DNA of 43,379 bases from Acidobacteriaceae bacterium. GTDB taxonomy: Bacteria; Acidobacteriota; Terriglobia; Terriglobales; Acidobacteriaceae. The DNA lies in the NCBI GenBank assembly GCA_003132445.1, contig PKXU01000108.1:5008-48386 (forward strand), read 5' to 3'. The translations under genes and the position numbers were made by a program. The notes beneath the pieces are model-generated. The model was not told the origin of the DNA, ran no database searches, and saw only the letters and a program-made list of their open reading frames with translations. This document shows, one piece after another, positions 18,110-36,051 of the stretch; position 1 is the stretch's first letter, and every line of letters starts with the position of its first letter.

Positions 18110-18214
18110 CCACGGAGGGCATGAGAGTTTTTGATTGCTGATTTTTGATTGCTGATTGGAATGGCGAATGTTCGTGTCTGTTTTATTTTCTCCGTGGCTC
18201 TGTGTCTCTGTGGT
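18110..18214. repeat. Intergenic dispersed repeat (CCACGGAG...CTCCGTGG plus TTTTTGATTGCTGA units)
   Basis: CCACGGAG at 18110-18117 and its complement CTCCGTGG at 18190-18197 bracket a core made of two TTTTTGATTGCTGATT-like units, followed by a GTGTCTCTGTGGTAAAG tail. The same modules recur inside dnaE2 (21360-21483, 18755-18850), imuB (22416-22452) and imuA (23850-23970). Confidence 0.85.
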
Positions 18215-18221
18215 AAAGAGT

Positions 18222-21200
18222 TTAGTGAAAATCGTGCGAGACGGTTTCGGCTTTTGAGACGAACAGCGGGAGCACGCGTTCGGCTTTGACAGAAATAACG
18301 TTGTCCTGATTTTGCAGGATGCCTTCCACGGCGAGGAAGCGCTCGCTGGTGAGCAGCAGGCGATTTTGATGAAACAAGTCGGGCGTGACAATGGCGTTGG
18401 CGACCCCGGTTTCATCTTCCAGACTTAAAAACACAAATCCTTTGGCAGTTCCCGGGCGCTGGCGGACGATAACGCAGCCGCCGATGCGGAGACGCTTGCC
18501 GCTGGGAATGTCGCGCAGTTCGCTGGCGCGGCGAATACCCATGGCCGTGAGCCATTCGCGGCGATAGGACATGGGATGCGGGCCAACAGTAAGGCCGGTG
18601 CCGCGGAAGTCGGCGACCAGGCGCTCTTCATGATTCATACGCTGCAGCGGCGAAGGCGAGTCGGGCTCAGACTGATTTTCGAGCAGCGGGCCGGAGACGC
18701 GGACGGCACGTTCGACCTGCCAGAGGGCGTCGCGGCGGTGAAGCGCGGTGACGAAAGAATTTTTGATTGTTGAATTTTGATTGTTGATTGAATCCGTGCG
18801 AATCCGTGAAAATCCGTGGCTGTCTTTTTGGTTTTTCTGTGGTGAATTCCCGATTGCATTCAGCGCGCCGATTTCTGCAAGCGTGGTGAGTTCGTCTTTG
18901 CGCAGTTCGGGAACGCGGTGGGTGAGATCGTGGATGGATGCGAAGGGAGTACGCATGCGTTCGCGGAGTAGAGCTTGAGCGGCTTCCTCGCGCAGGCCGC
19001 GGACATAGCGCAGGCCCATGCGCAGCGCGATATTCTTTCGCCCCTCCGGGGCTTGATTATTTTGTATTTCCATCTCCCCACGGCTTGCGCCGTAGGCTGC
19101 ATCCTTTCGCCGCTCCGCGGCTGCATCTTCTTGGCTGATAGCTGATGGCTGACAGCTGACAGCTTCCAACGTGCATTTCCAGTCTGATTGCATCACATCC
19201 ACGGGAAGAACTTTCAGGCCGTGCCTCTGCGCGTCTTTGACTATGGTTGCGGGAGAATAAAATCCCATGGGCTGGTTGTTGAGCAGGGCGGCGGTGAAGG
19301 CGGCCAGGTAACGGCATTTCAGATAGGCGCTGGCGTAGGCGAGCAGGGCGAAACTGGCGGCGTGCGATTCGGGGAATCCGTAGAGTGCGAAGGAAGTGAT
19401 GGAGAGAATAATTTCTTCCTGCGCTTTTGGGGAGATGCCATTTTGCGTCATGCCGGCGCGCAGTTTAGCTTCGATTTCGCGCATGCGCGACTGCGAACGT
19501 TTGAATCCCATGGCGCGGCGCAAATCTTCCGCTTCGCCTCCGCTAAAGTTGGCGGCGATCATGGCGATGCGCAGCAGTTGTTCCTGAAAAAGTGGGACGC
19601 CGAGTGTGCGCTTGAGCACGGGTTCGAGCGAAGGATGGGGATACGTGACTTCTTCGCGTCCCTGGCGGCGCAGAATGAAGGGATTCACCATCTGGCCGAC
19701 GATGGGACCGGGACGAATGATGGCCACCTGCACCACGATGTCGTAAAAGCGGCGCGGAAGCAGGCGCGGCAGAGATGCCATTTGCGCGCGGCTTTCCACC
19801 TGAAACAATCCCACGGTGTCGGCCTGCTGCAGTGCGGAATAGACTTCCGGATCATTCTGCGGAAGATGCGCCAGGTCAACTTCTTCGTGATAGTCGTCTC
19901 GGATCAGTTCGATGGAATCTTTGAGCACGGCCATCATGCCAAGGCCGAGCAGATCGACTTTAACGATGCCCATGTCGGCGCAATCTTCTTTGTCCCACTG
20001 CACCACGACGCGGCCGGGCATGGATGCGGGCTCGAGCGGGACCACCGAATCGAGTTGTCCCTGGCAGATAACCATGCCGCCGGAGTGTTGGCCGAGATGG
20101 CGCGGCATGTCTTGCACGGCGATGCAGAGTTCGTAATATTTGCGCAGGCGGAGATGATTAAGGTCGAGTCCAGCGTCACGGAAACGGCGGTCGAGGGCGT
20201 CGTTCTCGTCGCGGAATTCCCAGGTGGCGACCGCGGCGGAAATCTTCTGCAGCGTTTCCGCATCGAAGCCCAGAGCCTTGCCCATTTCGCGCGCGGCCAT
20301 ACGATTGCGATAGGTAATGACGTTGGCGGTCATCGCGGCGCCTCGCGCGCCGTAACGCTGGTAGACATATTGGATAACTTTTTCGCGTTCGTCGCCGCTG
20401 GGCAGGTCGAGATCGATGTCGGGCCACTCACCGCGTTCTTCGGAAAGAAAACGTTCGAAGAGCAGTTCCATGCCGACGGCATCGACTGCGGTGATGCCGA
20501 GCGCGTAGCAGACGGCGCTGTTGGCAGCGGAGCCGCGGCCTTGCACGAGAATATTTTGCTCGCGGCAGTAGTGGACCAGATCCCAGACGATCAGGAAATA
20601 TCCCGCCAGTTTTAATTTTTCGATGAGGTTCAGTTCCTTCTCAATCTGGCTGCGGGCGCGAGTTTGCATGTCGTGCGAAGCGCGGCCATAGCGCTGACGA
20701 AATCCCTGCCAGGCGCGCTCGCGCAAAAACGAATTCATGGTCTCGCCTTCGGGCACGGGATAGCGCGGGAATTCGTAGCCAAGATCGTTGAGCGTGAATT
20801 CCAGGCGGGAAGAAAGTCCGAGCGTGTTGGCGATGGCTTCGGGCAGGTCGGCGAAAAGTTGCTGCATCTCCTGCGGAGATTTTAAAAAATGTTCGGCGTT
20901 GCGAGTGAGCAGACGTCCGGCGGTGGAAAGCGTGCGGTGGTGGCGAATGGCAGTGAAGGCATCGCAAAGTTCGCGACCTTGCGGGATGGCGTAGCAGATA
21001 CCGTTGGTCGCCAGCAATGGAAGATTCAGGGAACGGGCGAGAGTGATGGCGGCGCGATTGCGCGATTCTTCCTCGCGCTGGAAATGACGTTGCAGTTCGA
21101 CGTAGACGTTGCCAGGGCCGAAGATGCCGATGAGTTGATCGACCTGGCGTCGAGCTTCCTCGATCCCACCTTGCTGCAAAGCTGCGGCGAGGAGGCCTTC

Positions 21201-21695
21201 GTCTCCGCCAGTGAGGCAGATCAGGCCATGCGCGTGCTCTTCGAGTTCTTCCGCGCAGACGGCGCCCTCGCCTTTTTTGGCGCGCAACTTCATTTTGGTG
21301 ATCAAGCGGCAGAGATTCTGGTAGCCGGCGCGGGAAGAAACGAGAAGCGGAAGACGGAATTCACCACGGAGGCACGGAGGCGCGGAGGATCTCAATTTTT
21401 GATTGTTGATTTTTGATTGTTGATTGGTTTTCTCCGTGCCTGAGCCTGCCCTGAGCGAAGCCGAAGGGTGACTCCGTGGTGAAAAAAGATTGGCTGTGAC
21501 TTCCGCGCCGATGTGCGCCTTGATTTTTGCTTTCTTCGCGGCCATATGGAAGCGCGGTGCGCCGTATACTCCGTCGGTGTCGAGCAGCGCCATGGCGGGC
21601 ATGTCGAGGTGGGCGCAAACTCCGGCTAACTCCTCGGGCAGGGACGCGCCTTCGAGAAAGCTGAAAGCAGAGCGGGCGTGAAGTTCGATGTACAT
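18222..21695 (-). CDS. dnaE2: Error-prone DNA polymerase DnaE2 with three in-frame repeat insertions
   Basis: A 1157-residue C-family polymerase of the damage-inducible mutasome. It has an N-terminal PHP domain (YIELHARSAFSFLEGAS), a polymerase core with active-site aspartates in WPDIDLDLPSGDERE, GRGSAANSAVCYALGI and FPESHAASFALLAYASAYLK, and a C-terminal OB fold (GKRLRIGGCVIVRQRPGTAKG). Compared with the family, three stretches of about 35-45 residues look inserted: around residues 69-113, 842-886 and 948-982. They are translated dispersed repeats and keep the frame. All canonical motifs outside them are intact, so the enzyme may still work. It is last in imuA-imuB-dnaE2. The spacer before its ATG is filled by another repeat, with no clear SD other than GAGAACTG. 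Confidence 0.93.
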   Translation of the reverse strand: MYIELHARSAFSFLEGASLPEELAGVCAHLDMPAMALLDTDGVYGAPRFHMAAKKAKIKAHIGAEVTANLFSPRSHPSASLRAGSGTEKTNQQSKINNQKLRSSAPPCLRGEFRLPLLVSSRAGYQNLCRLITKMKLRAKKGEGAVCAEELEEHAHGLICLTGGDEGLLAAALQQGGIEEARRQVDQLIGIFGPGNVYVELQRHFQREEESRNRAAITLARSLNLPLLATNGICYAIPQGRELCDAFTAIRHHRTLSTAGRLLTRNAEHFLKSPQEMQQLFADLPEAIANTLGLSSRLEFTLNDLGYEFPRYPVPEGETMNSFLRERAWQGFRQRYGRASHDMQTRARSQIEKELNLIEKLKLAGYFLIVWDLVHYCREQNILVQGRGSAANSAVCYALGITAVDAVGMELLFERFLSEERGEWPDIDLDLPSGDEREKVIQYVYQRYGARGAAMTANVITYRNRMAAREMGKALGFDAETLQKISAAVATWEFRDENDALDRRFRDAGLDLNHLRLRKYYELCIAVQDMPRHLGQHSGGMVICQGQLDSVVPLEPASMPGRVVVQWDKEDCADMGIVKVDLLGLGMMAVLKDSIELIRDDYHEEVDLAHLPQNDPEVYSALQQADTVGLFQVESRAQMASLPRLLPRRFYDIVVQVAIIRPGPIVGQMVNPFILRRQGREEVTYPHPSLEPVLKRTLGVPLFQEQLLRIAMIAANFSGGEAEDLRRAMGFKRSQSRMREIEAKLRAGMTQNGISPKAQEEIILSITSFALYGFPESHAASFALLAYASAYLKCRYLAAFTAALLNNQPMGFYSPATIVKDAQRHGLKVLPVDVMQSDWKCTLEAVSCQPSAISQEDAAAERRKDAAYGASRGEMEIQNNQAPEGRKNIALRMGLRYVRGLREEAAQALLRERMRTPFASIHDLTHRVPELRKDELTTLAEIGALNAIGNSPQKNQKDSHGFSRIRTDSINNQNSTIKNSFVTALHRRDALWQVERAVRVSGPLLENQSEPDSPSPLQRMNHEERLVADFRGTGLTVGPHPMSYRREWLTAMGIRRASELRDIPSGKRLRIGGCVIVRQRPGTAKGFVFLSLEDETGVANAIVTPDLFHQNRLLLTSERFLAVEGILQNQDNVISVKAERVLPLFVSKAETVSHDFH
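18755..18850. repeat. Repeat inserted in frame in dnaE2 (C-terminal part)
   Basis: It contains TTTTTGATTGTTGAATTTTG units followed by AATCCGTGCGAATCCGTG and AAAATCCGTGG words and a TTCTGTGGTGAATTC end. On the coding strand it yields a stretch such as SPQKNQKDSHGFSRIRTDS and NNQNSTIKNS between the canonical IGALNAIGN and LHRRDALWQ. Confidence 0.8.
19033..19166. repeat. Repeat cluster inserted in frame in dnaE2 (middle)
   Basis: Modules include CGCCCCTCCGGGGCTTGATT, CCACGGCTTGCGCCGTAGGC, CGCCGCTCCGCGGCTGC (each a small palindrome) and a GGCTGATAGCTGATGGCTGA run. Translated, it gives a low-complexity segment of about 44 residues (QPSAISQEDAAAERRKDA ...) between SDWKCTLE and ALRMGLRYVRG. Confidence 0.8.
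21360..21483. repeat. 124-bp repeat with perfect 12-bp inverted ends, in frame in dnaE2
   Basis: TTCACCACGGAG (21360-21371) and CTCCGTGGTGAA (21472-21483) are exact inverted ends. The core has TTTTTGATTGTTGATTTTTG units and a CCTGAGCGAAGCCGAAGGG-type module. It encodes residues about 71-113 of DnaE2, in the PHP domain between HIGAEVTA and RLPLLVSSRAGYQNLCR, which adjoin directly in ordinary homologues apart from a short loop. Confidence 0.88.
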
Positions 21696-21697
21696 CA

Positions 21698-21769
21698 GTT
21701 CTCAGTTCCCAGTTCTCAGTTAAACCGTTCACTTCCGAGTTCTTGCTGAGAACTGAGAACCGAGAACTT
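21698..21769. repeat. GAGAACTGAGAAC-type inverted repeat filling the imuB-dnaE2 spacer
   Basis: CAGTTCTCAGTTCCCAGTTC on the left and GAGAACTGAGAACCGAGAAC on the right form a long imperfect hairpin. It occupies nearly all the space between the imuB stop (21774) and the dnaE2 ATG (21695), so it would shape the ribosome entry of dnaE2. The same 13-bp unit is found in three tandem copies at 28872-28910. Confidence 0.82.
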
Positions 21770-21773
21770 TCTT

Positions 21774-23354
21774 TCAGTCATAGGTTCCTTCCACGAACCA
21801 GTTGCCGCCGAGCAGGTCATGCACGAGGCGGTAGAAAGAAACGGCCTCTCCGTTTCGTAAGGCGAGGTCCCACTCCTCGCGAGACCAGGCTTCGCGCTCC
21901 CACCAATCGCCGGAAGCGCGCCAGGGGCCGGCCTTCCAGAGCACCTCACCCTGGACATCTTTTTTCTTCGCGCAGGCCACGCGCATGGGCTGAGAGTTTT
22001 CCAAGGTCACATGGGCGCGCAACGGGGGACGGAAGCGACGCAAAGCGGTGACTACGGATTTTTCTTCTGACATGTCAGAAGCTTTTTCGCGCTCACTTTT
22101 TCGCGGAGCCTCCGATACGAAACGCCGCATGCGAAATCCTTGCGGATGATGGGTGTCGAGCAACTCCACCGCTCCCACATTGTTTTCGCCGACCATGCTG
22201 GCGATGCGAGCCAGGGTGAGTTCCAGTTTTTCCGGCTCCGGCGAAGGAGGCAGAAACAGGCCGCCCTGGGCGCAACGCGGGTGTGCCGGTTCGGCGGCCA
22301 GATGGATCTTCACGATGGGCGCACCGGGAGGATGCGCGTTCAAATCCAGTTGCAGTAATTTTAGAAATACTTTGGCATCGAGCATAGGTTGGGGCAGGCG
22401 CAGGGTACGGAGAAATTGTTGATTGCTGATTTTTGATTGCCGATTGCGGAAAGAACAATTTTCCAGTTCCAGGGTGAGGCGCAGTTCTTGTGTGGCCAGG
22501 GCACGGGAAGCAAGACGCGCGCAGAGTTGTTCGAGCAGGCAATTTAACAAAAAAGCCAGAGGCTCAAGCAGGACGATGGCGTGCTCCAATTCGACGGCTT
22601 CTTCGAATATCTGCGGCGCGCCCACTGGCACCAGAGTGCGCGCGGCGGCGCCACGCGCCAGTTGCTGCAGGTGCAGACCTTCTTGTCCGAGACGTTCGCT
22701 TAATGCAATTTCCGGCAGTGCGGCCAGAGCACGCAAATTGCATATGCCCCAGCGGTCGAAGGTTTCGAGCAGGCTGTCGGCGGATTTTTTCTGATCTGCA
22801 TTTAGATGATTTGTTTCCAGAGGATTGGGAAATAAAACTTCCAAGGGCAAATTTCCCAATCGCTCCGCTTCTTTGCCTGCCGGGATAACGGTGACGCCGG
22901 AAAAACCTCGGGCAGCGAGCGCGGCCGCATCGGGATTGGAAGCTATGGCAACGTTGGCTGCGAGTCCCAGGGTGATCGCGCGGTTCGAGATGGCCCTTGA
23001 AATTTCCGGCAACGATCCGAAAAGAGATTCCATGCCCGCGAGATCGAGCAGGGCCGTGTTGCAGGCGGCGTCTTCCACGCAGGGTGAGAACGACTGAGCA
23101 CAATCAAGCAGAGCGGCGTGCGTGGCGGATTCCTGCAGCGGAGATCGCGGGCGCAAAGCGAGTTCCGTGCATAGTTCGGCTTGGGCTTTGGTCATGCCCG
23201 GCGCGATACCCTCGGCTTTTTCGTTCACTGCGATAATTTTTCCCAGTGGAGGCTTGCCTTCGAAGATGGCGACTGGTTGAGCCTGTAACTGCAGTTCGGC
23301 GCACAGGGCGGCCGCCACGGGAAAATTCGGAACGTAAATGCAGGCAAACGGCAT
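21774..23354 (-). CDS. imuB: ImuB, Y-family-like mutasome protein without catalytic acids
   Basis: A 526-residue protein related to Y-family polymerases. The start MPFACIYVPNFPVAAALC aligns with the DxDxFFA region of active enzymes but lacks the catalytic aspartate, as expected for ImuB, which acts as a scaffold linking DnaE2 to the beta clamp. Later regions show DLAGMESLFG, GLAANVAIASNPDAA and a long C-terminal part with WWEREAWSREEWDLAL and YRLVHDLLGGNWFVEGTYD, typical of ImuB. A small insertion of about 12 residues (RNRQSKISNQQF) near residue 305-315 is a translated dispersed repeat. It lies between imuA and dnaE2 on the same strand. Confidence 0.9.
   Translation of the reverse strand: MPFACIYVPNFPVAAALCAELQLQAQPVAIFEGKPPLGKIIAVNEKAEGIAPGMTKAQAELCTELALRPRSPLQESATHAALLDCAQSFSPCVEDAACNTALLDLAGMESLFGSLPEISRAISNRAITLGLAANVAIASNPDAAALAARGFSGVTVIPAGKEAERLGNLPLEVLFPNPLETNHLNADQKKSADSLLETFDRWGICNLRALAALPEIALSERLGQEGLHLQQLARGAAARTLVPVGAPQIFEEAVELEHAIVLLEPLAFLLNCLLEQLCARLASRALATQELRLTLELENCSFRNRQSKISNQQFLRTLRLPQPMLDAKVFLKLLQLDLNAHPPGAPIVKIHLAAEPAHPRCAQGGLFLPPSPEPEKLELTLARIASMVGENNVGAVELLDTHHPQGFRMRRFVSEAPRKSEREKASDMSEEKSVVTALRRFRPPLRAHVTLENSQPMRVACAKKKDVQGEVLWKAGPWRASGDWWEREAWSREEWDLALRNGEAVSFYRLVHDLLGGNWFVEGTYD
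22416..22452. repeat. Short dispersed repeat inserted in frame in imuB
   Basis: GTTGATTGCTGATTTTTGAT followed by TGCCGATTGCGG is the core unit of the repeats in dnaE2 and at 18130. It splits LENCSF from LRTLRLPQP, which would be adjacent in ordinary ImuB. Confidence 0.78.
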
Positions 23355-23361
23355 GGTGAAT

Positions 23362-23402
23362 CATTTAGTAATTGGACGATTTAGTAATTGAGTAATTTGT
23401 TT
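23362..23402. repeat. ATTTAGTAATTG direct repeats in the imuA-imuB spacer
   Basis: ATTTAGTAATTGGACGATTT continues into TAGTAATTGAGTAATTTG, giving three related AGTAATT words in about 40 bp. It is AT-rich compared with its surroundings and fills the spacer between imuA and imuB. Confidence 0.65.
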
Positions 23403-23410
23403 CATCTTTT

Positions 23411-24466
23411 TCATCCGGCCCAGACGGTTTTGGTCGCGAACGTGACGGAGTGCGCGGGTTTACGGTCCAGACGGGAACGAATTAGTTCGGCATTGATATT
23501 CATGCCCGTCAGCAATTGCGCGTGAGGCGGATCGGCAATTTGGCAATCAAGGGTGGACTGTTCGCCTAGGCAAATTTTCTTTCGCCTCGGGGCTATTTCA
23601 TCTTCTGAATCCAGCTTCAGCAGTAGAGAAGAGCAGCTTCCGGCAATGGGATATTGCTCAATCGCCAGCAGAATCGTGTGCTTGTTCTCGACCGCGCGGC
23701 GGAAGCGGAACCAGGTGGTCAAAGGAATATAACGCGCGGCCTGTCGCGGAAGATCGGCGAGATCGAGAACAATCAGGCCGAAGCCTCCGCTTTCGAGAAG
23801 CAGATCCGTGGCACGAAGAACTTGCTCCAAACACTGTTCTGCCTGATTTTTGTTTTGTGATTGAATTGGATCTTTGAATTTTTTCCCCTCTGTGTCGGAG
23901 CTTGCCCCTTCGGCAGGCTCAGGGCAAGCTCTGAGCGAAGTCGAAGGGTGCCTCCGTGGTGAGTGCCCTCTTGGTGGCGAACTCTCGCTGCAACGCACCC
24001 ATAGCAGGTGGTCCAGTTCCACGCCGGCCACTGCTGCGGAATAAGGATTGAGCGCGTCGCTGGCATCGACTACTACGCAGAATTCTCCACGCCCAGTTGC
24101 GGCGGCGAGAGCGGCCAACATTAAGGTGCTGCGTCCGGAGGATGCCGGGCCGCAGATTTCGGTCAGGCACCCGCGCGGCAGTCCACCACCGGTCAGGGCG
24201 TCGATGGCAGGGACGCCGCTCGAAACCATTTCCGGCGCGGGACGAATATCGAGCCGCGAAGCCGGGGTGATGTGGGCCAGTCTAGGATCGGCCGAGGCAA
24301 GTGCGGCGGAAAGGTTCGGAAAAAGATTGGGGCGGCGAACCCGTTGTGAGGGACGAGCCTGGTTTGGGCCGTCCGCTGCTGGCAGAGACACTTCTGGAAC
24401 TGCTTGAGCGTCAAAGACAAAAGGGCGGCCCAGGGCCGCCGAAGTGGAAACCACTGCGGAAGACAT
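23411..24466 (-). CDS. imuA: ImuA, RecA-like mutasome protein with a repeat insertion
   Basis: A 351-residue RecA/SulA-like protein that heads the mutasome operon. The P-loop region reads GGGLPRGCLTEICGPASSGRSTL and a second motif GFGLIVLDLADLP corresponds to Walker B. The open frame extends to 24754, but the ATG at 24466 is chosen because GAGGAAC lies 5 nt before it and the protein upstream has no family similarity. Between WVRCSES and EQCLEQVLRATDLLL lies an extra stretch of about 45 residues (RRHPSTSLRACPEPAEG ...) that is a translated repeat. No clear LexA operator was recognised upstream. Confidence 0.85.
   Translation of the reverse strand: MSSAVVSTSAALGRPFVFDAQAVPEVSLPAADGPNQARPSQRVRRPNLFPNLSAALASADPRLAHITPASRLDIRPAPEMVSSGVPAIDALTGGGLPRGCLTEICGPASSGRSTLMLAALAAATGRGEFCVVVDASDALNPYSAAVAGVELDHLLWVRCSESSPPRGHSPRRHPSTSLRACPEPAEGASSDTEGKKFKDPIQSQNKNQAEQCLEQVLRATDLLLESGGFGLIVLDLADLPRQAARYIPLTTWFRFRRAVENKHTILLAIEQYPIAGSCSSLLLKLDSEDEIAPRRKKICLGEQSTLDCQIADPPHAQLLTGMNINAELIRSRLDRKPAHSVTFATKTVWAG
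23850..23970. repeat. Dispersed repeat inserted in frame in imuA
   Basis: It carries a TTGTGATTGAATTGG / TTTGAATTTTT core, GAGCTTGCCCCTTCGGCAGG, CTCTGAGCGAAGTCGAAGGG and a GCCTCCGTGGTGAG end. The last two modules are shared with the repeat at 21432-21483 in dnaE2. Confidence 0.8.
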
Positions 24467-24752
24467 AAGTTCCTCGGAAGATTTCAGGGAGCGCCGGGGC
24501 TGGTATTTTTCAGACTGAGCCGCGGAGGCTATTTCGCTTTTTATTCGCCTTTCGAAATTCTGCGCCGGGAGGCTGAGTTTGTCAAGTCCCAGCCGGATTG
24601 CACAGCGATAGGGATGCTTCGACTGCCAAGGAGTCAGCGTTGCGCTGCTCCTTCTTCGCTCAGCAGGACGGAAGTCCGTGGCCGCTGCATCTATCTGGCA
24701 CCATAAGCAAATGCGCTCCCGAACCGATTGCAATCTGTGACATGATAGACGC

Positions 24753-24908
24753 ATGAAGAAACAAGCGTCCGATCAGCAGTTCCACGACCGCCGTTATCAG
24801 GAGCGGAAGCGTGCCGAGGCCGCCAGGCAACCGGGAAAGAAGAAGAGCGGCCGCGAAAATGCCAAACAAACCGCCGGGATGCCGGCCAAAGAAACTGTAA
24901 AGGAATAG
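24753..24908 (+). CDS. Small basic hypothetical protein (51 aa)
   Basis: An ATG-started frame encodes 51 residues rich in Lys, Arg, Gln and Ala (MKKQASDQQFHDRRYQERK ... AKETVKE), without a signal peptide or membrane segment. It lies between the divergent imuA and the convergent ppc. No family is recognised and no convincing SD is visible. It could be a real small protein or a chance frame. Confidence 0.35.
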   Translation: MKKQASDQQFHDRRYQERKRAEAARQPGKKKSGRENAKQTAGMPAKETVKE

Positions 24909-28871: not shown

Positions 28872-28910
28872 GAGAACTGAGAACGAGAACTGAGAACGAG
28901 AACTGAGAAC
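28872..28910. repeat. Three perfect tandem copies of GAGAACTGAGAAC
   Basis: The 13-bp unit occurs at 28872-28884, 28885-28897 and 28898-28910, ending 5 bp before the phoU stop codon region. It is the same unit as the inverted repeat before dnaE2 (21698-21769). It lies in the phoU to response-regulator spacer. Confidence 0.9.
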
Positions 28911-35939: not shown

Positions 35940-36040
35940 GTCGTTCGTCGTTGGCTCTCCTTTGTTTGCCCTAGCGACCAACGACGAAGGCCAGCGGCTA
36001 AGGGTTAACAGCAACGACTAACGGCCGACGACTAACGACC
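35940..36040. repeat. CGACTAACGAC-type palindromic repeat
   Basis: TTCGTCGTTGG (35944-35954) and CCAACGACGAA (35978-35988) are perfect inverted arms. They are followed by a run of related words (AACGACTAACGG, GACGACTAACGACC). It is non-coding and lies between two convergent hypothetical genes. Confidence 0.75.
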
Positions 36041-36051
36041 GAAGTCCCAAA

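Follow-up and report, generated by a model that had tools for sequence, protein, structure and literature searches.

Why are the genes of an error-prone DNA polymerase complex interrupted, in frame, by repeats that also lie between genes? This question is raised by the imuA-imuB-dnaE2 operon in a stretch of 43,379 nucleotides (hereafter the window) of contig PKXU01000108.1 from an Acidobacteriaceae bacterium (assembly GCA_003132445.1). An earlier note on this DNA had described five in-frame inserts built from dispersed repeats in the operon, three in dnaE2 and one each in imuB and imuA, and all of them could be located, together with an intergenic copy of the modules (Table 1). On the basis of comparisons with related loci and with the rest of the genome, we found that the positions of the inserts recur in relatives while their contents differ, and it seems likely that small repeats in flux throughout the genome use tolerant linkers in the three encoded proteins as landing slots. 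New in these observations is that the slots recur with differing contents and are used by unrelated repeat families.

The inserts consist of tandem arrays of 7-, 8- and 10-mers (about two to five units per array in the window) and of palindromes or hairpin composites, often nested within one another. At the first DnaE2 slot (S1), for example, a CAATCAA 7-mer array and a CCTTCG..GCTCAGG element are nested within an 8-mer palindrome. It was previously suggested that all inserts share the same three modules. The repeats are indeed dispersed, but a common set of modules could not be confirmed: the TTTTTGATTGNTGATT type was present in two dnaE2 sites and in imuB, CTGAGCGAAGNCGAAGGG in dnaE2 site 1 and imuA, and the full CCACGGAGGCACGGAG in dnaE2 site 1 only, with its start in imuA, and the dnaE2 insert at 19029-19157 (slot S2) belongs to a separate repeat family.

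An alignment of orthologues, which had been suggested as a check, revealed recurrent slots whose contents are not conserved between close relatives. We compared 81 DnaE2 proteins, one from the window and 80 from the named Acidobacteriota loci that ranked best among 434, and the greatest length variation was found at three places, S1, S2 and S3. Among the close relatives (27 loci including the window, with a core identity to the window of at least 83.6%), 10 or more residues were present at S1 in 24 of 26 loci, at S2 in 26 of 27 and at S3 in all 26, with medians of 36, 44 and 37.5 residues, respectively, and 26 of the 27 loci had an array with a period of 7, 8 or 10 in a DnaE2 slot. The medians were 16, 13 and 25 residues in the 23 loci at 75–80% identity, and 2, 4 and 22 residues in 31 more distant loci, nine of which had a slot array. 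S1 and S2 were therefore often almost empty in distant loci and S3 was often filled; it should be noted that eight of these loci had been chosen for short linkers and are not typical of the distant set. Bins called Candidatus Sulfotelmatobacter were among the loci with 75–83% identical DnaE2 and are among the nearest named relatives of the window genome. In the other two proteins, the alignments revealed up to three recurrent slots in ImuA and one main slot in ImuB among the matches listed, and a single ImuB (locus L042) had one additional insertion. Blocks varying in length by at least 10 residues numbered three in DnaE2, four in ImuB and three in ImuA, and none in UvrA1, one in DnaE1 and two each in LeuS and PolA.

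The suggestion that the operon is enriched in such repeats was also borne out. In the window genome, all three mutasome genes and 9 of 322 other genes, some of them resembling paralogous coding sequence, matched random intergenic DNA (55 kb, from 20 stretches of 20 kb on contigs known to bear a heptamer match). A broader comparison used a genus set of 56 mutasome genes (115.7 kb; 18 ImuB, 17 ImuA and 21 DnaE2, the last being 21 of the 27 close loci) and 101 control genes (286 kb; 22 UvrA1, 27 LeuS, 29 PolA and 23 DnaE1, with sequences outside 0.9–1.25 of the median length dropped). Segments resembling at least two intergenic places of the window genome numbered 16 in mutasome genes vs 0 in controls when the random sample was used, and 59 vs 1 with all fetched intergenic DNA, a 114-kb set that is biased to the window modules because half of it was fetched for holding them. 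Owing to common descent, many of the mutasome segments do not represent independent events. Arrays with a period of 7, 8 or 10 numbered 92 in the mutasome genes and two in the controls, both at the 3' end of UvrA1. Additional arrays listed for DnaE1 were an artefact of a run of N.

Enrichment does not make the operon unique: inserts are also present in a DNA ligase gene, an Lhr helicase gene and a few others. The idea that all DNA-repair genes are hit was rejected, and no general attraction of polymerase or repair genes was shown, UvrA1, PolA and DnaE1 being clean. Separately, UvrA2 (L337-L356), unlike UvrA1, was seen by eye to have one linker with repeat-like segments in about 5 of 20 genomes, and the Lhr-type helicase gene of the window genome (L131:5790-9443) contains several repeat-derived segments of another family.

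The repeats could be followed throughout the window genome. The heptamer pattern gave 79 matches and its backwards-read version none, CTGAGCNAAGNCGAAGG gave 26 vs 1 for its control, and CCACRGAGGCACRGAG, with up to two mismatches, gave 57 vs 14; for CCACRGAGGCACRGAG, placement considered only clusters with a match of at most one mismatch (30 of the 57 hits) and one two-mismatch pair. A whole-genome count, also suggested before, found 36, 25, 21 and 19 clusters in four module searches that overlap in place, of which 3, 2, 1 and 1 were in mutasome genes, at five places (the imuA copy was labelled intergenic by the gene caller and was assigned by coordinates). Other intragenic copies were found in a tetrapyrrole-methylase-family gene (RsmI-like by our reading) and in genes for an ATP-dependent DNA ligase, a Methyltransf_28 protein and a partial HpnE-like protein. 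An open reading frame (ORF) on contig C21 held two more, and two further intragenic copies were doubtful. In these other hosts the repeats lay mostly in linkers or near the ends, as judged by eye; for several copies labelled genic that lay within some 80 bp of a called start, the start itself was probably overcalled, and the match at C108:28068 probably arose by chance. When 75 DnaE2 inserts were compared with 400 kb of the genome by BLAST, 14 places were matched (6 intergenic, 3 at a gene edge and 5 intragenic), vs one place for reversed sequences. A survey by shared intergenic 12-mers was replaced by BLAST against the insert library or intergenic DNA, its list being dominated by conserved imu-locus promoter DNA. 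At two places (L199 from 2450, where FAFLCVLCASVVS occurs, and L206 near 1795-1896), the start of a gene holds an 8-mer repeat whose translation is hydrophobic and resembles a signal peptide.

Orientation analysis provided an indication of selection on the reading frame. As an array of 7- or 8-bp units yields one recurring peptide whichever frame is read, a given orientation is stop-free either in every frame or in none; for the heptamer, CAATCAA is open and TTGATTG is closed. On the coding strands of mutasome genes (window and 80 loci), 27 heptamer arrays had the open and one had the closed orientation, whereas the matches in the whole genome were 41 forward and 38 reverse. Such a difference points to selection for an open frame. 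Both orientations were found in 14 of the 36 heptamer clusters, and each of the four clusters in the window had one. The claim that every insertion preserves the frame held for most loci: both flanks were in one open frame at S1, S2 and S3 in 80, 81 and 80 of the 81 DnaE2 loci, respectively, a rate that is biased by the choice of loci as open frames with core motifs. An apparent exception was G034 (C741, L207), a fragmentary gene from a genus bin of about 1090 contigs, in which the frameshift at the end of the site-3 insert is due to a broken allele or else to misassembly. In another fragmentary gene of a genus bin (G021), the frame was broken in conserved sequence outside the slots.

Further investigation of slot contents revealed a complex pattern of turnover. 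S1 contents were typed by hand as A (8-mer palindrome, including a decayed copy in L045), C (GTCATCCTGAGC hairpin), J or none. On a core-column tree of 35 loci, these types required 15 changes (minimum 3), compared with a mean of 17.8 for shuffled types and a value as low in 13 of 200 shuffles, and clustering by clade was thus weak. Two loci with 92% core identity (L051 and L054) had different S1 types and similar S2 and S3 contents. Mean identity at S1 was 61% within type A and 73% within type C, and 44–51% between groups, except for A at S1 vs A at S2 (57%). Independent fresh insertion of each S1 copy, as the sole process, is unsupported, the copies being alike within type. Long-tract recombination of dnaE2 segments as the source of S1 swaps is likewise unsupported, since codons outside S1 did not group clearly by type (63 of 1000 shuffles were as high as the best window, and one right-hand window had too few columns); the 20 codons to the left of the insert did group by type (22 of 24); these codons, however, reach into the element-linked linker. 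L053 and L039 have a common S2 cassette (87% identity); identity is 97% over the adjoining 36 nt of the left flank and falls to 72% over the 36 nt beyond, a pattern consistent with short-tract exchange.

Nesting and base pairing were also evident at S1. L047 has a clean 24-nt element nested within its S1 hairpin element, and the other 11 C-type copies are without it. Of the features of a miniature inverted-repeat transposable element, inverted arms are present among the repeats, and GTCGAA flanks the nested insertion of L047 on both sides, maybe as shared homology rather than as a duplication. The inner 13-bp stem of the C-type element was paired in 93.8% of cells (10 of the 12 copies, two of other length being omitted), with two-sided changes at 6 of 13 pairs. 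Shuffling reached the observed covariation score in 0 of 500 cases, the number of two-sided pairs in 1 of 500 and the pair types in 32 of 500. Palindrome correction or hairpin selection may act within coding sequence.

The S2 composite is the one family for which a mobile process is supported. Two hairpin patterns of this composite gave 28 and 11 matches, 39 in total, in 19 clusters, of which 15 were intergenic, one was at a gene edge and three were intragenic. It is therefore a short, dispersed, imperfect palindrome that is mostly extragenic, as repetitive extragenic palindromic (REP) and REPIN elements are. On contig C95, an IS200-like Y1_Tnp gene has a AGCCCCGGAGGGGC unit on each side in opposite orientation, one of the nearest units lying immediately before its likely start codon; a full S2 composite is present on one side and a further direct-orientation unit on the other. 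A Y1 transposase gene is thus flanked by the same palindrome, whose mobility is predicted. REP elements flank their transposase genes in such an arrangement, according to the excerpted text of PMC3116915. Neither a GTAG nor a CGTC tag was seen by eye at an end of the window copy of the composite. No 7- or 8-mer modules were found near the two strongest of five Y1_Tnp matches (L168 and L169; more widely L178 and L190); one CTGAGC module lies about 1.7 kb from one of these two genes. Accordingly, of the active mobile process proposed in the earlier note, sequence comparison supports the part concerning the S2 family, and not the part concerning the other families.

The genome bin comprises 5.12 Mb in 203 contigs with 87% completeness. 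All three genes lie on the minus strand of the window, and a DnaE2-type polymerase adjoins a Y-family ImuB and a RecA-like ImuA, as is typical of a mutasome, although the ImuA score is under the NCBIfam family cut-off. DnaE2 has PHP, DNA_pol3_alpha, finger, HHH_6 and OB domains in Pfam, and a profile search found replicative alpha subunits as its solved relatives, including 5fku, which we take to be from E. coli. The name ImuB is a putative assignment from operon context and the Pfam IMS match. The longest ORF of imuA starts at 24754, and its second slot (peptide IAPRRKKI), possibly a decayed S2-type remnant in the window, is filled in several relatives. Upstream of imuA, at 24533-24549, lies the motif TTCGCTTTTTATTCGCC, whose 12-mers were found in at most 34 of 101 compared sequences, mostly imu loci; the motif could serve the mutasome of Acidobacteriota as an operator, of the SOS type or another. 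Elsewhere in the window, 7-mer arrays of GAGAACT and AACGACT occur at 28872-28910 and 36013-36042.

Table 1 Genes, slots and intergenic repeats of the mutasome operon in the window
Feature	Position	Strand	Content or basis
dnaE2, error-prone DNA polymerase, 1157 amino acids (aa)	18222..21695	-	ORF; NF004225 error-prone DNA polymerase, 1209.8 bits, cut-off 939
imuB, Y-family protein, 526 aa	21774..23354	-	ORF; PF00817 IMS
imuA, RecA-like, 351 aa from ATG at 24466	23411..24466	-	ORF; RecA Pfam match
DnaE2 slot S1, aa 72-111, inside PHP match	21363..21482	-	8-mer palindrome arms CCACGGAG..CTCCGTGG
DnaE2 slot S2, aa 847-889, within HHH_6 match	19029..19157	-	7-mer array and three-hairpin composite
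DnaE2 slot S3, aa 949-985, between HHH_6 and OB matches	18741..18851	-	8-mer arm remnant, 10-mer array, 7-mer array
ImuB slot, aa 301-314	22413..22454	-	CAATCAA-type 7-mer array
ImuA slot	23855..23983	-	Start of 8-mer arm; CCTTCGACTTCGCTCAG..GCCGAAGGGG element nested inside
Second ImuA slot, peptide IAPRRKKI	23573..23596	-	Candidate decayed remnant of S2-type element
Intergenic composite copy	18112..18214	.	8-mer arms flanking 7-mer array
Inverted 7-mer arrays between imuB and dnaE2	21695..21768	.	AGTTCTC / GAGAACT

How could so many different repeats come to occupy the same few places? We propose that the numerous small dispersed repeats of the genome (hairpin composites, as well as 7/8-mer arrays that often form inverted pairs) would insert, nest, delete and exchange mainly in intergenic DNA, and that intragenic copies would persist only if the protein tolerates the added residues and the frame stays open. 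If the mutasome linkers are tolerant, their slots would be filled and renewed in the manner of intergenic spacers, with the remainder of the protein conserved, and each insert would offer a homologous target for further nesting or short exchange, so that the slot would stay active. The inserts would then be largely neutral, most of the families would be able to move, and low constraint on an SOS-type polymerase might be the cause of the tolerance. Of the options raised in the earlier note, a tolerant target was the best supported, on the basis of length-variable sites in or between domains, the 27:1 stop-free bias and the fact that other genes are hit too.

Several observations weigh against this landing-slot account. 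Tolerance alone leaves unexplained the recurrence of repair-type hosts in unrelated phyla, as described in a 2013 study (PMC3733652). In the window genome, imuB and imuA each match one intergenic place, and 4 of the 322 other genes match at least two, like dnaE2. For the 7/8-mer families, a scan of two of the five Y1_Tnp matches revealed no cognate transposase, and no target duplication was established for the inserts (from one clean nested case, L047). At S3, at least 10 residues were present in 20 of 31 distant loci, and so some long linkers are not repeat inserts; the mixed state of distant loci at this slot slightly lowers our confidence in the account as a whole. A-type copies at S1 resemble one another (61%) more than those at S3 (49%), which indicates that many slots contain old alleles rather than recent arrivals; exchange and loss of such alleles occur alongside the gain of new ones. 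Finally, two-sided stem changes would be unexpected from neutral linker drift and expected from palindrome correction.

Other explanations were considered as well. The inserts might be adaptive cassettes, kept for an effect on mutasome activity or expression as tethers, messenger RNA hairpins or frame-switching 7/8-bp arrays. Nearly every DnaE2 slot is filled in close relatives, the hairpin stem is preserved by two-sided changes, gain or loss of one 7- or 8-bp unit would shift the frame, and one genome (G034) has a frameshift at a slot; the 2013 authors likewise suspected a mutator effect (PMC3733652). However, sequence, length and type vary between close relatives, the window arrays have only about 2–5 units, which limits slippage, and the frameshifted G034 is a poor bin, and we regard this explanation as unlikely. 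A related possibility is a contingency locus, in which unit gain or loss or cassette exchange would shift the frame and so turn error-prone repair on and off with elevated frequency; this appears very unlikely.

The insertion process might instead favour these genes, for example if damage induction exposed single strands to a Y1 transposase. Such targeting would agree with the strong mutasome enrichment, with the Y1 transposase gene flanked by S2-type units and with REP elements in repair genes of other phyla (PMC3733652, partial text). It is nevertheless unlikely, as PolA and UvrA1 of the same genus are without such segments, unrelated families occupy the same slots, and the S2-family clusters are mostly intergenic. 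That the linkers are ordinary low-complexity sequence, evolved as protein and merely repeat-like in DNA, is hardly credible. Although long S3 linkers without obvious repeats occur in many distant loci, in close relatives the same DNA is found between genes in both orientations, and the arrays present in a DnaE2 slot of almost all these loci are lacking in control genes. This explanation was thus refuted for close relatives, and the refutation stops short of some distant loci. Tolerant linkers receiving a flux of small repeats therefore remain our preferred explanation.

The slots would provide a natural, many-species record of insertion tolerance, in which the same linkers of a polymerase complex have been tested repeatedly by unrelated repeats. 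The claim of the 2013 study that intragenic repeats in DnaE2 and repair genes are not fortuitous becomes testable with DnaE1, PolA, UvrA1 and UvrA2 of the same genomes as controls. Should populations show changes in slot contents, variability would extend to the mutator machinery itself. Caution is also needed in annotation, because a DNA repeat can be the source of peptides such as RHRDTEK, NQQSKINNQ and STEYRVPSK in proteins of Acidobacteriota.

Similar repeats are known from other bacteria. Rickettsia palindromic elements are particular hairpin families of Rickettsia, and the resemblance to them pointed out in the earlier note was upheld, in that palindromic repeats are tolerated in frame within proteins; unlike them, several families are concentrated here in one Acidobacteriota operon. 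Cyanobacteria have small dispersed repeats as well as short tandemly repeated repetitive sequences of 7-mers. Dispersed heptamer tandem arrays and nested small repeats are common to both cases, whereas the phylum and the units differ, and we know of no fixed coding slots for the cyanobacterial repeats. The nearest precedent is the 2013 study (BMC Genomics 2013;14:522, PMC3733652), and no such slots in Acidobacteriota were found among the literature matches listed. In the excerpted text of that study, intragenic GTAG- and CGTC-tagged REPs were described, with genes of DNA synthesis and repair (DnaE2, UvrA, RecBCD and ligase) accounting for many of the hosts, an effect of intragenic REPs on mutators was suspected, and about the same REP site was noted only for recB of two Xanthomonas species. 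Repeats inside DnaE2 are thus already known in other phyla, and the present case is a variant. It resembles the REP/REPIN system in having short dispersed palindromes that are mostly intergenic and sometimes intragenic, with DNA synthesis and repair genes including DnaE2 prominent (PMC3733652), and, for the S2 family, in the presence of its hairpin units on both sides of a Y1 transposase gene. It differs in that the same slots are occupied by several families unrelated to one another, mainly 7/8-mer arrays for which no transposase is known, and in that these slots recur in relatives with different contents.

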